Origin: an uncultured Pelagibacteraceae bacterium
Lineage (GTDB): Bacteria > Pseudomonadota > Alphaproteobacteria > Pelagibacterales > Pelagibacteraceae
NCBI GenBank assembly: GCA_902630665.1
Contig: CACOVP010000005.1
Coordinates: forward strand, 1-64,000
Direction: 5' to 3'
DNA: 64,000 nt
This document shows, piece after piece, positions 11,710-17,246 of this stretch. The position numbers were made by a program, and so were the translations under genes. The notes beneath the pieces were generated by a model. It ran no database searches. It had not been told where the DNA came from and was given only the letters and a program-made list of their open reading frames with translations. Within the stretch, counting starts at the first letter, position 1. Each line of letters begins with the position of its first letter.

Positions 11710-12444
11710 TTAATGGTGTAAATTTAATGCATCATTTAAATAGATGCAGGTTAATATTGCAAAAACATATGCTTGAAGAAATGCTACTAAAATTTCCAAA
11801 CCTGTTAATGCTACTGAAAAACTAAGTGGTAACCAACCACCTAATACTCCTAAACTTACGACAAATCCTCCAAAAACTTTTAGCATGGTATGACCCGCCA
11901 TCATATTCGCAAATAAACGCACTGATAAACTTACTGGTCTACTTAAGTAAGAAATTATTTCAATAATTGTTATTAAAGGTAAAAGCACGACTGGTACTCC
12001 GCTGGGGACAAAAATACTTAAATATTTAAAACCATGTTTTATAAAACCAATTACAGTAACCGCCACAAAAATAAATAAAGCCATAATTAAAGTTACTATT
12101 ATATGACTTGTAACTGTAAAAGAGTAAGGCAACATCCCTACCATGTTGCAAAAAAGAACAAACATAAATAAGCTAAATATAAAAGGAAAATAAGGTTTTG
12201 CTTTCGAGCCAGCGGTGTCACTAATCATCTTTGCAACAAAAGCATAAAACATTTCAGCGATAAGCTGCAATTTGCTAGGAATTATACTTTTATTCTTTGA
12301 ACCTAAATATAAAAATAAAATAATTATTGAGGCGCTAATCACCATAAACATACTTGCATTAGTAAAAGATAAATCAATACCAGCAATTTTTATTTCAGGT
12401 CCAATTTTGTGGACTGTAAACTGTTGCATTGGATTACTTGCCAT
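11710..12444 (-). CDS. atpB: ATP synthase F0 subunit a
   Basis: Membrane stator subunit holding the two proton half-channels. The 244-residue protein has about six hydrophobic helices. The essential arginine is in SRPVSLSVRLFANMMAGH, the strongest subunit a motif. FLQAYVFAILTCIYLNDAL ends the protein as usual. It lies 9 bases after atpI/atpZ and 13 before atpE in the standard F0 order. Confidence 0.97.
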   Translation of the reverse strand: MASNPMQQFTVHKIGPEIKIAGIDLSFTNASMFMVISASIIILFLYLGSKNKSIIPSKLQLIAEMFYAFVAKMISDTAGSKAKPYFPFIFSLFMFVLFCNMVGMLPYSFTVTSHIIVTLIMALFIFVAVTVIGFIKHGFKYLSIFVPSGVPVVLLPLITIIEIISYLSRPVSLSVRLFANMMAGHTMLKVFGGFVVSLGVLGGWLPLSFSVALTGLEILVAFLQAYVFAILTCIYLNDALNLHH

Positions 12445-12453
12445 ATAAACTTT

Positions 12454-12738
12454 CTAGTCTTCTTTCTGCATTTTTTTAGCTGCTCTTATTACGTTTAACA
12501 TGCCAGCAGCTGCGCCCAAAAAAAAGAAAATTATTATTAACCAAGGTTTAGTATCAAACCAATTATCTAAAATAAACCCAATTATTGTCCCAACTGCGAC
12601 TGCAGCCACAAGCTCTGTTCCAAGCTTAAAAGCGTTTCCCATAAACGAGCCCCTTTTTTCATTATCATTTAAAAGCTGGTTTTTTATTTTAGATTTTGCA
12701 ATTTTTAGGCGAGTTTTAAAATCATCTGGATCTGTCAT
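12454..12738 (-). CDS. AtpZ/AtpI-like F0F1 ATP synthase assembly protein
   Basis: Small membrane protein of 94 residues at the head of the F0 genes. A basic, soluble N-terminus is followed by two hydrophobic helices (LVAAVAVGTIIGFILDNWF and PWLIIIFFFLGAAAGMLNV) and a short charged tail. The GxxxGxxxD helix-loop pattern matches the AtpZ/AtpI accessory family, linked to assembly of the c-ring or to magnesium uptake. It starts 5 bases after smc and ends 9 before atpB, so it belongs to the same transcription unit. Confidence 0.87.
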   Translation of the reverse strand: MTDPDDFKTRLKIAKSKIKNQLLNDNEKRGSFMGNAFKLGTELVAAVAVGTIIGFILDNWFDTKPWLIIIFFFLGAAAGMLNVIRAAKKMQKED

Positions 12739-12743
12739 TTTAT

Positions 12744-15188
12744 CTATGCAACTAATTCCTCGGCTCTTTGCAAGTCAACAGATACTAGTTGGCTTACCCC
12801 TTGCTCAGCCATTGTGACACCATAAAGTCTATCCATTCTGGACATAGTTAAAGCATGGTGAGTAATGATAATAAATTTTGTGTTAGTAATTTTTGTTAAA
12901 TCATCCAGTAATCCACAAAATCTTGTAACATTCGCATCATCCAAAGGAGCATCTACTTCGTCTAACACACAAATAGGGGAAGGGTTCACTAAAAAAACAG
13001 CAAAAATGAGAGATAAAGCCGTCAAGGCTTGTTCACCCCCGGATAGAAGAGTAATCGATTGAAGTCTTTTTCCTGGAGGAGAAACAAACATTTCTAAACC
13101 TGCCTCTAAAGGATCATCTGAGTCAACCAACTCTATTTTTGCTGTTCCACCATTAAATAATTTTGTGTAAACCTCATTAAATTTTCTATTAACTTTTGTG
13201 TAAGCATCAAGCAATCTTTCCCTACCTTTTTGATTTAATTCATCAATACTTGTCTTTAATTTTACAATCGCTGTATACAAGTCAGCTCTATCATCCTCCA
13301 TTTTTTTGATTTCAGTCTCATATTTTTTGGTTTCTTCATCAGCTCTTAAATTAACTGAGCCAAGAGAGTCTCTAATCTTCTTAGTTTGTTCAATTTTTTC
13401 AGACTGTTCTTCCATTGAGGGAAAATTTTCAAATTCTACATCACTTAAATCTGATTGTGGTAAAATTGAGCTTTCATTTTCTATATTAAGTTCACTCTTG
13501 ACTGAATAAAGCAAATCTTTTTTCCTATTTTCTATACCTTCAATAGTAGCCTCATTACGAGCTTTATTTTCTTTCAGACTAGTAAGTTTTAGTTGAATTT
13601 CTCTAAGATTTTCATTGATAGAACCAAATTTTTTTTCTGCTTCAAGTAGTTCGCTTTCTATTTCCTCGTTTCTTTTTTTTATATTTTCCAAGTTTTGTAA
13701 ATTCTGACCCTTAGAAGTCGCTATTCTTTCGGGATTTTTTTGATTTTCTGCAATTTCTAATTTTATTCGGCTTATTCTATCATTTAATTCAAACACCATC
13801 TTTTCTGAATTAGTTTTTAGATTTCTCCAGTTTTCTAATTCAACATCAATATTTTTAATTCTTTCTTTTCTTTTAATCGACTCGCTCTCGATAGATTTAT
13901 TTTTTCCGTATTTTTCTGCATATTCCTCTTGAGAAAGTGTAATTTTTTTTACTAATTTTTTTAATTCTTTAAAAGTTTCTTTAGAAAGTTTTTTATTATT
14001 ATCAATATCATCTTCAATTTGATCAAGCATATTATCTAACTGGCTTTGAAAATTATTCAATTCATTTTTTGAAATTTGCAGTTCTCTAGAAGAATTTGTT
14101 TCTACATCTAATAATCTTGTTTCTGTATTAAGAAGATCTTCCTTTTCTTTTAAGATTCTTTTTTCGTTTAATTCAGCGTCTAGTGAAATACTTTTTTCAC
14201 GTTCAAGATCTGACTCAACAATTTTGACAGATTTTTCAAGCTTTTCTTGTAAAGATTTGATTCTTGCTTCTTCTTCAACAAGGCTTGTCATATCCAAATT
14301 TAATTTTTGTAATGTAGCGGCACTTTCCATCTTTTTATCTCGCAGAGGTGCCAACTTTCTATTTTCTTCCTCTAAAAGAGTATTATTATGGTTATAATCA
14401 ATATTTATCGCGCTAATCTCATCCTCAAGTTCACTTAACTTTTCTTGAATCTTTTTTTTATCTTTTTCGATATCTTTAATCTTCAAAAAGTACAAACCAG
14501 CCTCAATTTTTTTTATTTGACCAGAAATTTCTTTGTATCTAGTAGCTTCCTCAGCTTGTTTTTTTAAGTTATCAAGCTGCTTTTGTTGTTGTTTTCTCAA
14601 CTCATCAGCTCTTTTCAAATTATTTTCAGCCGCGTTTAATCTTGTTTCAGCTTCATGTCTTCTGGAGTGAATACCAGAAATACCCGCTGCTTCTTCAAGA
14701 ATAGATTTTCTTTCAATTGGTTTAGAGGTGACTAATTGCCCAATTCTTCCTTGGCTAATTAAAGATGGAGAATGAGCTCCCGTAGAAAGATCAGCAAAGA
14801 AAGTTTGAACGTCTCTAGCTCTCACCTCTTTATCATTAATGAAATATTTTGAACCTTTATCTTTTTCAATTTTCCTTCTTATGGATATTTCCTCAAATTC
14901 TTTATATTGCACTGGTCCAGTTTTTTCACCATTATCAAGCAATAAGGAAACCTCAGAAATATTTTTAGAAGGTCTATTAGATGTTCCTGAAAAAATTACA
15001 TCTTCCATGCCTGAGCCTCTCATGCTTTTCGCAGAATTTTCTCCCATACACCATCTTAGTGCTTCAACAATATTAGACTTTCCACAACCATTTGGTCCAA
15101 CAATTCCTGTCAGACCCTTTTCTATGAGCACAGTTGTTTTTTCAGAAAAAGATTTAAAACCTGTCATCTCTAAATTTTTAAATTTCAT
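12744..15188 (-). CDS. smc: Chromosome segregation SMC-family ATPase, short form without visible hinge
   Basis: ATPase that organises and helps segregate the chromosome. The N-terminal head has MKFKNLEMTGFKSF and Walker A GPNGCGKSN; the C-terminal head has the ABC signature LLSGGEQALTAL, Walker B PICVLDEVDAPLDD and a TTHH-like switch (IIITHHALTMSR). Bacterial SMC is normally about 1,150-1,200 residues; this one is 814. Between the heads I see continuous coiled coil (about residues 165-690) with no glycine-rich globular hinge, so the arms seem shortened and the dimerisation hinge lost. The frame is unbroken, so this is not a frameshift product. scpA and scpB are not in the window. RecN- or MukB-like identity is less likely given the SMC-type signature. 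Confidence 0.9.
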   Translation of the reverse strand: MKFKNLEMTGFKSFSEKTTVLIEKGLTGIVGPNGCGKSNIVEALRWCMGENSAKSMRGSGMEDVIFSGTSNRPSKNISEVSLLLDNGEKTGPVQYKEFEEISIRRKIEKDKGSKYFINDKEVRARDVQTFFADLSTGAHSPSLISQGRIGQLVTSKPIERKSILEEAAGISGIHSRRHEAETRLNAAENNLKRADELRKQQQKQLDNLKKQAEEATRYKEISGQIKKIEAGLYFLKIKDIEKDKKKIQEKLSELEDEISAINIDYNHNNTLLEEENRKLAPLRDKKMESAATLQKLNLDMTSLVEEEARIKSLQEKLEKSVKIVESDLEREKSISLDAELNEKRILKEKEDLLNTETRLLDVETNSSRELQISKNELNNFQSQLDNMLDQIEDDIDNNKKLSKETFKELKKLVKKITLSQEEYAEKYGKNKSIESESIKRKERIKNIDVELENWRNLKTNSEKMVFELNDRISRIKLEIAENQKNPERIATSKGQNLQNLENIKKRNEEIESELLEAEKKFGSINENLREIQLKLTSLKENKARNEATIEGIENRKKDLLYSVKSELNIENESSILPQSDLSDVEFENFPSMEEQSEKIEQTKKIRDSLGSVNLRADEETKKYETEIKKMEDDRADLYTAIVKLKTSIDELNQKGRERLLDAYTKVNRKFNEVYTKLFNGGTAKIELVDSDDPLEAGLEMFVSPPGKRLQSITLLSGGEQALTALSLIFAVFLVNPSPICVLDEVDAPLDDANVTRFCGLLDDLTKITNTKFIIITHHALTMSRMDRLYGVTMAEQGVSQLVSVDLQRAEELVA

Positions 15189-15781
15189 TAAAGTTTTTTC
15201 TCCAATTCCCTTTTAAATTCTTTGTAATCTGATTTTCCAGAATATTTTTTTTCATTAATGAATATTGTTGGCGTAGCTTCAATTTTATATTTTTTCTGTG
15301 CTTCAATTCTCAAACTTAATATTTGGTCTTGTATTTCTTCATTTTTCAAACAAGTATCTATTTTTTTATTATCATAATTAAGTTCAGCCGTAATTTTTTT
15401 GATCGACTCATTAACTTTAATGATATCAGAACCAACAGCCCAGTTTCTCTGATTTTCATAGATTTTGCCTAAAAGTTTAAAGTTTTTATTGTTGTCAACA
15501 CTACATCTTAAAATTATTTCTGCATTTAAGGCAGCTAAGTCTAATGGAAAAGGATGGTGTTCAAACCTTACTAAACCTTTGTCAATGTATTCTTGTTTTA
15601 ATTTATAAAAAATTTTTGAGTGGAAATTAGCACAAGCTGGGCAAGTTAAAGATGAAAAAACTTTTACTGTTATCTTAGAGTCTTGATTTCCCAAACCTAT
15701 AATTTGACTTTTGACCTCTATAGAAAATAAAACCAAAAAAATAGGAAATATTTTGTAAATAAAATTATTTAACTTTTTCAT
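15188..15781 (-). CDS. DsbA-family thiol-disulfide oxidoreductase
   Basis: Exported thioredoxin-fold protein of 197 residues. An N-terminal hydrophobic signal segment (IFPIFLVLFSIEV) leads to the active site FSSLTCPACANFHSKIF, a CPAC redox pair, and the cis-proline loop IEATPTIFINEKKYSG is present. It probably forms or shuffles disulfides in periplasmic proteins. It overlaps dciA by 17 bases and ends on the smc start. The order mutY / DUF721 / DsbA-like / smc is common in alphaproteobacteria, which supports the call. Confidence 0.88.
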   Translation of the reverse strand: MKKLNNFIYKIFPIFLVLFSIEVKSQIIGLGNQDSKITVKVFSSLTCPACANFHSKIFYKLKQEYIDKGLVRFEHHPFPLDLAALNAEIILRCSVDNNKNFKLLGKIYENQRNWAVGSDIIKVNESIKKITAELNYDNKKIDTCLKNEEIQDQILSLRIEAQKKYKIEATPTIFINEKKYSGKSDYKEFKRELEKKL

Positions 15782-16250
15782 TGTATGCTTTTAAAAAATT
15801 ATTAAGTGAAATTTTTAATTGGTTATCATTAATTTTTTGCATTTTTTTTTCAATCTTATCTAAATCTTTAAATACTCTTAATATCTTTTTTTGCTTATTT
15901 ATTTTAGCTTGTACGATTTTAAGCTTCACGCTAGTAATGCAATCATATCCAAAAAAACTATTGATTTTATCCATTATCTTATTCTTTTCGTACTCAATTT
16001 CTATTTCTTTTCCATGAACAACATTTAATATTAAAGTTCCGTCTTTCATATCTTTTCCCATTTTTATCTTAATAGGATAGCAGTAGTCTGAAATATTTTT
16101 AGCAACTATTTTTGTCCAGTTATCAACTATATTAGAATAATTATAGCCACCTTTTCTCAAATATTTCCTTAAAGTTTTTGGAATCGAAGTTGAAAAGGGT
16201 CGAAGACCTTGTATGTACGTCTGCGTTTTATTATTATTTTTGTTATGCAT
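15765..16250 (-). CDS. DUF721/DciA-family protein
   Basis: Protein of 161 residues whose centre matches the DUF721 (DciA) domain: an N-terminal basic part (IPKTLRKYLRKGGYNYSNIVDNWTKIVAKNI) followed by a KH-like part with DGTLILNVVHGKEIEIEYEK. In other bacteria DciA loads the replicative helicase where DnaC/DnaI are absent; that role here is inference from family. Its ATG at 16250 reads out of the palindrome ATGCAT, whose other strand is the proposed mutY start, so the two genes overlap head to head by six bases. It opens the long minus-strand run that ends at rnhA. Confidence 0.82.
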   Translation of the reverse strand: MHNKNNNKTQTYIQGLRPFSTSIPKTLRKYLRKGGYNYSNIVDNWTKIVAKNISDYCYPIKIKMGKDMKDGTLILNVVHGKEIEIEYEKNKIMDKINSFFGYDCITSVKLKIVQAKINKQKKILRVFKDLDKIEKKMQKINDNQLKISLNNFLKAYNEKVK

Positions 16251-17246
16251 ATAAATTCGACACTATCAAAAAAAATTTTAGCTTGGTATGATAATAACAA
16301 AAGAACTTTACCTTGGCGTGTTGGCAAAAAGTCACCTAAAAATCTGTATTATAGGCTTTTAAGTGAATTTATGTTGCAACAAACTCAAGTAAAAACAGTA
16401 GTTCCATTTTTTAACAAATTCACTAAAAAATTTAAAACATTAAATGATTTGTCTAAAAGCAATGAAAAAGAAATTTTAAAAATGTGGGAAGGCCTGGGTT
16501 ATTATAGAAGAGCAAGAAATCTTTTAGCAAGTTCTAAAATTTTAATTCAAAATTACAATTCTATATTACCAAGATCAATAATTGAAATAAAAAAACTTCC
16601 AGGAGTAGGTGACTATACTGCGAACGCATTATTAGGATTAGTTTATAATGAACCAAGAATAGCATTAGACGGAAATGTAAAAAGAGTATTCTCGAGAAAT
16701 TTAAACATTGAAGAAAATAAAATAAATTTTGATAAATTTATTAAAAAAAATAAAAAAAAACTTTTTGTCACTAGACGAAACGATGATTTTGTTGAGGCTT
16801 TGATGGAATTTGGAGCATTAATATGTAAACCAAAAGACCCAAATTGTCTTACGTGTTGTTTGAAAAAAACTTGTAAGTATTTTAAGTCTAGTAAAAAAAT
16901 TAAAAATATTAGAAATAAAATGATTAAAAATAAAAACTATGATATTTTTTGTTACATAAACAAAAAAAAACAAATAGCATTAACTAAAAGCAATCAAATA
17001 AGTTTTTTAAAGAATTTCAATTTACCAGAAATTAAAGAAACCAAAAGATCTTTTAAAAATCCAAACTGGACATTTCTTAAAAAATATAAAAATTCAATTT
17101 CAAATTTAAAATTAAATATAAATTTATATTATAAATTTTCAGATAAAATTCCGAGGGCGTACAGTTGGTATTCCTTAAAAAATAATAGGGAATTTGTTCC
17201 AAGTTTTACAAAAAAAATATTTAGACAAGTATCAACTTTATTTTAA
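16245..17246 (+). CDS. mutY: A/G-specific adenine glycosylase
   Basis: Base-excision repair enzyme that removes adenine mispaired with 8-oxoguanine. The track start at 16209 lies far inside the opposite gene; ATG 16245 gives MHINSTLSKKILAWYDNNKR followed by TLPWR, the normal MutY start and about 333 residues. The recognition motif EFMLQQTQVKTVVPFF, the helix-hairpin-helix LPGVGDYTANALL and catalytic Asp in IALDGNVKRV are present. Four [4Fe-4S] cysteines follow as C-X6-C-X2-C-X5-C (CKPKDPNCLTCCLKKTCKYF). The C-terminal NUDIX-like part is short and diverged. It ends on the next start as TAATG. Confidence 0.95.
   Translation: MHINSTLSKKILAWYDNNKRTLPWRVGKKSPKNLYYRLLSEFMLQQTQVKTVVPFFNKFTKKFKTLNDLSKSNEKEILKMWEGLGYYRRARNLLASSKILIQNYNSILPRSIIEIKKLPGVGDYTANALLGLVYNEPRIALDGNVKRVFSRNLNIEENKINFDKFIKKNKKKLFVTRRNDDFVEALMEFGALICKPKDPNCLTCCLKKTCKYFKSSKKIKNIRNKMIKNKNYDIFCYINKKKQIALTKSNQISFLKNFNLPEIKETKRSFKNPNWTFLKKYKNSISNLKLNINLYYKFSDKIPRAYSWYSLKNNREFVPSFTKKIFRQVSTLF

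Follow-up and report, generated by a model that had tools for sequence, protein, structure and literature searches.

A hinge-less Smc ATPase in SAR11 bacteria with a predicted single-hairpin fold

The smc locus and its ATPase head

The window, a 64,000-nucleotide stretch of DNA from an uncultured SAR11 bacterium of the Pelagibacteraceae, contains an intact 814-codon smc frame on the minus strand (Table 1). The gene lies in the order mutY (opposite strand)-dciA-dsbA-smc-atpI-atpB, which is found in SAR11 and in most other alphaproteobacteria with enough flanking sequence.

Table 1. Positions of smc, the parts of its product and the neighbouring genes in the window
Feature	Position	Strand	Basis
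AtpB, ATP synthase a subunit	11710..12444	-	PF00119; synteny
AtpI (ATPase_gene1), directly downstream of smc	12454..12738	-	PF09527; synteny
smc, hinge-less SMC ATPase (SAR11), 814 aa	12744..15188	-	ORF; TIGR02168; PF02463; nearest PDB sequences
C-terminal half of the ATPase head, residues 655-814, with LSGGEQ at 715-720, Walker B at 739-751 and H-loop at 775-778	12747..13226	-	PDB alignment; motif scan
Head-proximal C-terminal arm, residues 567-677, predicted short helices: SMC joint and neck, apparently retained	13158..13490	-	AlphaFold2 helices 592-607 and 616-677; B. subtilis Smc layout; 5xei
C-terminal arm helix (predicted), residues 403-566, with R443, W454, L468 and P486 conserved across Alphaproteobacteria	13491..13982	-	AlphaFold2 model; conservation
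Apex turn (predicted), residues 397-402, where other SMCs have distal arms and hinge	13983..14000	-	AlphaFold2 model; alignment; indels
N-terminal arm helix (predicted), residues 171-396, continuous	14001..14678	-	AlphaFold2 model; DSSP
N-terminal half of the ATPase head, residues 1-165, with Walker A at 31-39	14694..15188	-	PDB 3zgx/5h68 alignment; motif scan; dN/dS 0.026
Thioredoxin-fold protein, DsbA-like, immediately upstream of smc; neighbour conserved	15188..15781	-	PF13462; synteny
DciA, conserved neighbour	15765..16250	-	PF05258; synteny
MutY-like HhH-GPD glycosylase, divergent neighbour	16209..17246	+	PF00730; synteny

The 814-residue protein scores 685.9 bits against TIGR02168 (SMC_prok_B equivalog), above the cut-off of 567.35 bits that defines membership, and 168.7 bits against PF02463 (SMC_N). 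Among PDB sequences, it lies nearest to the heads of bacterial Smc. Its counterparts in the single-cell genome AG-917-N08 and in Pelagibacter HIMB058 share 99% and 83% identity with it, which places the organism in SAR11. The motif scan locates the Walker A motif (GPNGCGKSN), the Q-loop (near residue 146), the signature motif (LSGGEQ), the Walker B/D-loop segment (ICVLDEVDAPLDD) and the H-loop (ITHH). The protein thus meets the criterion of a split ABC ATPase head (Walker A, signature, Walker B and H-loop), and the catalytic motifs are invariant throughout the order. Because the TIGR02168 score exceeds its cut-off, the gene order is conserved and, in 12 genomes, the listed SMC_N matches include no second SMC-type protein, the ORF is, as judged from its sequence, the true and orthologous Smc of a SAR11 bacterium.

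An earlier sequence-only reading of the window had described a protein of only 814 residues, without naming its strand, in which two intact ATPase half-heads flank a charged middle region devoid of a glycine-rich hinge. The ORF has this length, all of the head motifs are recovered by the motif scan and the PDB alignment, and the middle region (residues 170-640) is 41% charged with eight glycines in 471 residues.

Hinge searches and distribution across the order

The Pfam hinge profile PF06470 finds no match in the 814-residue Smc or elsewhere in its own genome. PF06470 alone is, however, a weak test for a hinge in Alphaproteobacteria. As only 79 of 241 alphaproteobacterial genomes contain a match above its cut-off, a lineage-specific profile (A2) was built from an alignment of the hinge regions of 33 alphaproteobacterial SMCs. 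The A2 profile was validated by the individual matches of 30 of the 33 member sequences to PF06470, and it matches the solved Smc chain 5h69 (E=5.9e-5). It detects a hinge in 167 of the 241 genomes, in contrast to the 79 found by PF06470. By our own reading of the search listing, 174 of the 241 sampled genomes contain a strong SMC match. Outside SAR11, the A2 profile recognizes the hinge in 167 of the 171 sampled alphaproteobacterial genomes with an SMC. The seven genomes with a strong SMC match but without an A2 hinge comprise the three sampled Pelagibacterales and four others, in which contig ends interrupt smc or just one of its halves was recovered. A strong SMC match is lacking altogether in about 67 of the 241 sampled genomes, most of which are small.

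Across 58 Pelagibacterales genomes, the A2 profile identifies no hinge, and a lone match with E=0.04 is attributable to chance. When the search is repeated without filters, the middle regions of SAR11 Smc score at most 3.4 bits, which is below the values reached by shuffled sequence (up to 9.4 bits), whereas hinge-bearing control SMCs score 90-150 bits. Likewise, the RWDG hinge motif is present in all 49 of the other alphaproteobacterial SMCs compared, which were picked by head motifs and not by RWDG, and in none of the 139 SAR11 SMCs. The central hinge dimerization domain expected of SMC_prok_B is therefore not met in SAR11 Smc in the Pfam and A2 searches, both run with positive controls, and the absence of the hinge is confirmed at the level of sequence profiles. 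More generally, calls of hinge absence require lineage-specific profiles, since PF06470 under-detects alphaproteobacterial hinges. A candidate hinge remnant at the tip of a second SAR11 family (EVEGYDD..W.., resembling GYE.AL by eye) was rejected, with a score of about 0 bits, below those of shuffled sequences.

An smc match is found in 136 of 147 Pelagibacterales genomes. The 139 Smc copies that were read are 787-881 residues long, the shortest of which runs to a contig end, and all lack the hinge. One further feature of a single SAR11 smc copy is an internal TAG, which reflects a sequencing error or a broken gene there. In a tree based on the heads only, the SAR11 SMCs all group together in a single clade (SH-aLRT 99) with one change of hinge state; the tree results from a quick search and contains only alphaproteobacterial rows, some of them long-branched. 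The comparison shows that a single loss removed the hinge, in the common ancestor of the order. The genome position is conserved, and therefore it was the resident Smc that lost its hinge, and no new gene was gained. The sequence-only reading had proposed a hinge-less, short-armed SMC that could be refuted by a hinge found by profile search or by full-length SMC in close relatives. Neither was encountered, since the Pfam and A2 profiles found no hinge in the middle region and the frames of the entire order fall short of full length. The proposal is supported and extended to an order-wide loss in a single ancestral event, for which short arms are not a sufficient explanation; the dimerization by other means that it also included is an inference.

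By descent, the SAR11 protein is a Smc, but it lacks one feature used to define the family, the hinge. No report of a hinge-less Smc in SAR11 was found in the open-access literature, a scope that excludes most subscription papers and all bioRxiv preprints. The one earlier report of a 'hinge-less SMC' describes a cluster of ocean metagenomic ORFs assigned to Actinobacteria (class Actinomycetes) (Sussfeld et al. 2025, PMC12153180). The cluster resembles SAR11 Smc in its marine origin, in the lack of both hinge and CxxC, in the predicted head and coiled coil and in the absence of a second SMC in tandem. It branches near actinobacterial SMCs in a text that does not include SAR11, whereas the SAR11 gene is syntenic with alphaproteobacterial smc; the sequences were not compared directly.

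Predicted fold, arms and apex

An AlphaFold2 model of the 814-residue Smc (47 sequences, mean pLDDT 74.5) predicts a single helical hairpin with a six-residue turn and an apex pLDDT of about 80-90. The low pTM of 0.39 is as expected for a long rod. The criterion of coiled-coil arms with a head-proximal joint is met in the model, with antiparallel pairing following from the hairpin and with arms shorter than canonical ones. Among PDB structures, the best match to the fold is 5xei, a construct that comprises head and joint. In the joint of B. subtilis Smc, the N-terminal helix is continuous and the C-terminal part is divided into short helices (PMC5526789). Because the C-terminal breaks in the model match this layout, the joint appears to be retained in SAR11 Smc. 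The apex of the deepest-branching SAR11 family is also predicted to be all-helical, with a turn at residues 421-426, where the confidence is low.

SAR11 Smc and canonical bacterial Smc (B. subtilis Smc and alphaproteobacterial Smc of ~1150 residues) have a common origin and agree in their head motifs, in neck and joint, in genomic neighbourhood and in their partners ScpA, ScpB and ParB. The SAR11 protein differs in lacking the hinge, in arms of about 225 residues or less each and in the absence of about 340 residues. In an alignment with the 1153-residue SMC of L059, the missing segment corresponds roughly to residues 395-750 of the latter and encloses its hinge core (residues 523-614); the exact edges depend on the alignment. 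Loss of the hinge as a by-product of arm shortening in small genomes was considered and rejected. SMCs from three other small-genome alphaproteobacterial lineages (L199 and L200, 865-866 residues; L201, 881 residues; L202, 936 residues) are similarly short, with very short arms, and keep WRWDG and the remaining hinge. By rough count, their arms fall below those of the shortest working B. subtilis mini-Smc (PMC5344682). Unusually long alphaproteobacterial SMCs also occur (L206, 1524 residues; L207, 1417 residues; L208, 1341 residues), in which the hinge is present and the arms or inserts are extended.

The apex is hypervariable, with indels after residues 387, 398, 407 and 421, and is the fastest-evolving part of Smc, with a dN/dS of 0.085 compared with about 0.035 for the whole protein (607 pairs) and 0.014-0.026 in the heads (0.014 for residues 641-814). 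The arms are under purifying selection (dN/dS 0.03-0.05). These ratios are rough, as synonymous sites are near saturation. Short forms of Smc (798, 809 and 811-814 residues) sit among long forms (857-881 residues) at three places in the tree, implying at least three separate apex shortenings of 45-72 residues after hinge loss. This repeated shortening speaks against a conserved replacement domain, and no conserved replacement dimerization domain is evident at the apex. Below the apex, mid-arm residues that are conserved across Alphaproteobacteria are kept in SAR11 (R309, D327, E331, R443, W454 and P486), and the set just below the apex possibly marks an arm contact or an elbow. W454 (nucleotides 13827-13829) is a tryptophan in 40 of 49 alphaproteobacterial rows and in 12 of 12 SAR11 rows. 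A conserved aromatic motif, EVEGYDD..W...F..KFY, occupies the tip in the second SAR11 family (L036-L039 and L101-L105), around residues 420-440.

Partner proteins and possible modes of action

Of 58 Pelagibacterales genomes, 52 encode ScpA and 52 encode ScpB; ParB was recovered in 37 of 38 genomes examined. All three are encoded in the genome from which the window derives, which satisfies the kleisin and kite criterion of the family and answers the earlier suggestion to look for scpA and scpB in the full genome. In the second SAR11 family, ScpA frames span 266-281 residues and match only the first ~95 positions of PF02616, the C-terminal half being divergent. A second SMC, MukB or RecN as the agent of chromosome work was rejected; the SMC_N matches listed for the 12 genomes contain only smc, short RecF-like frames and ABC-type or UvrA-like ATPases, the latter classified on the basis of their frame length and a weak score. 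Because the partners are retained, purifying selection is strong and no other SMC is found among the matches listed, the chromosomal Smc-ScpAB system most likely works without a hinge in SAR11, a function that is inferred.

The reading that is favoured here, and that is considered reasonably probable, is that SAR11 Smc lost its hinge once, forms a single hairpin and acts in a ParB-loaded Smc-ScpAB complex as a natural 'core-only' SMC, with the dimer state, DNA binding and loop extrusion all inferred. As the comparison shows, the ancestor of Pelagibacterales lost about 340 residues, comprising the hinge together with the distal portions of both arms, and the polypeptide is predicted by AlphaFold to fold back at a short turn into one helical hairpin with one ATPase head, with the neck and joint kept. 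The hinge-less Smc-ScpAB complex would still organize the chromosome after loading by ParB, as inferred from its partners and from purifying selection. What joins two hairpins may be the ATP-dependent engagement of the heads, a bridge of ScpA and ScpB between them and side-by-side contacts of the arms. By inference from engineered Wadjet cores, such a core-only SMC would translocate on or extrude DNA without the hinge gate that is proposed to permit obstacle bypass.

Several engineered systems bear on this reading. In the ecJET(core) Wadjet, the region from elbow to hinge was swapped for a short linker, and the head and proximal arm remain, as in SAR11 Smc (Liu et al. 2025, PMC12647877). This hinge-less core cleaves plasmids, which was read as intact loop extrusion, lacks obstacle bypass and depends on a crosslink to close it (PMC12647877). 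Unlike SAR11 Smc, it is artificial, belongs to JetC of an anti-plasmid system and is closed by an engineered disulphide. The hinge of B. subtilis Smc can be replaced by an unrelated dimerizer, the Rad50 zinc hook (PMC5344682), and contacts between the arms reportedly help B. subtilis Smc without a hinge to dimerize (PMC5526789). Two of these analogies also weigh against the core-only reading. The Wadjet core required an artificial crosslink, and closure of a hinge-less ring may accordingly not be a given; the B. subtilis arm contacts were described with a hinge that raises the local concentration.

It is put at about an even chance that the SAR11 chromosome is run by a natural core-only motor, whose translocation or extrusion proceeds without a hinge-closed ring or hinge-gated bypass and was fixed in the ancestor of the order. 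Slow growth in poor water may, as a speculation, lessen the need for obstacle bypass, yet other streamlined lineages kept the hinge. The hinge counts as one of the defining parts of SMC motors; whether it serves as a dimerizer, a DNA entry gate or an obstacle-bypass gate is debated. An entire order of free-living bacteria, SAR11, the most abundant in the ocean, has done without it from its common ancestor onwards, and ScpA, ScpB and ParB are retained. SAR11 Smc is thus a natural experiment on the purpose of the hinge, a question hitherto approached only with engineered mutants, and if its Smc-ScpAB still organizes chromosomes, a hinge-closed ring is unnecessary for the basic job.

An open clamp without a ring, in which two hairpins are joined only at the heads through ScpA, ScpB and ATP and bridge DNA instead of extruding loops, is unlikely but remains viable. 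It would be compatible with the retention of the heads, neck, ScpA and ScpB and with the rapid evolution and repeated shortening of the apex, as if no specific binding took place there. However, the hinge-less Wadjet core is reported to be inactive once its artificial closure is reduced (Liu et al., PMC12647877), and purifying selection on the arms, together with the preserved mid-arm residues, also counts against such a clamp. A more doubtful alternative places a replacement dimerization element at the apex, where tip-tip contact would in effect form a mini-hinge. The aromatic tip motif of the second SAR11 family and the 45-80 additional apical residues of the 857-881-residue forms suggest such an element, but the order-wide apex is conserved neither in length nor in sequence, the apex of the window protein is modelled by AlphaFold2 as a mere six-residue turn, and the absence of CxxC from all 139 copies rules out a zinc hook and leaves the Rad50/SbcC apex criterion unmet.

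Repurposing of Smc, for example for RecN- or SbcC-like DNA repair, is very improbable. RecN and Rad50/SbcC are hinge-less SMC relatives with the same plan of a head and a hairpin. Rad50/SbcC and archaeal ASRP/coalescin share with SAR11 Smc an SMC-type head and an antiparallel coiled coil without an SMC hinge, but they dimerize by the CxxC zinc hook that SAR11 copies lack, and SAR11 Smc scores below the family cut-offs (at most 35.3 bits for the Rad50 family against 700-1087). RecN, to our knowledge, has no kleisin partner, and SAR11 Smc does not meet its family criterion either (TIGR00634, 38.6 bits against 407.85). Moreover, ScpA, ScpB and ParB are kept in SAR11, and no other SMC for chromosome work is found among the matches listed. 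A hinge supplied in trans by a separate gene is scarcely credible, as nothing was found in its favour and it is already contradicted by the A2 search, which returned nothing significant in the 58 Pelagibacterales genomes, several of them single-contig. An assembly error, a frameshift or a decaying gene, for which only the roughly 70% completeness of the window's assembly could be cited, can practically be set aside, being already contradicted by a dN/dS of 0.035 and by open frames in 139 copies, including those of single-contig and single-cell genomes.
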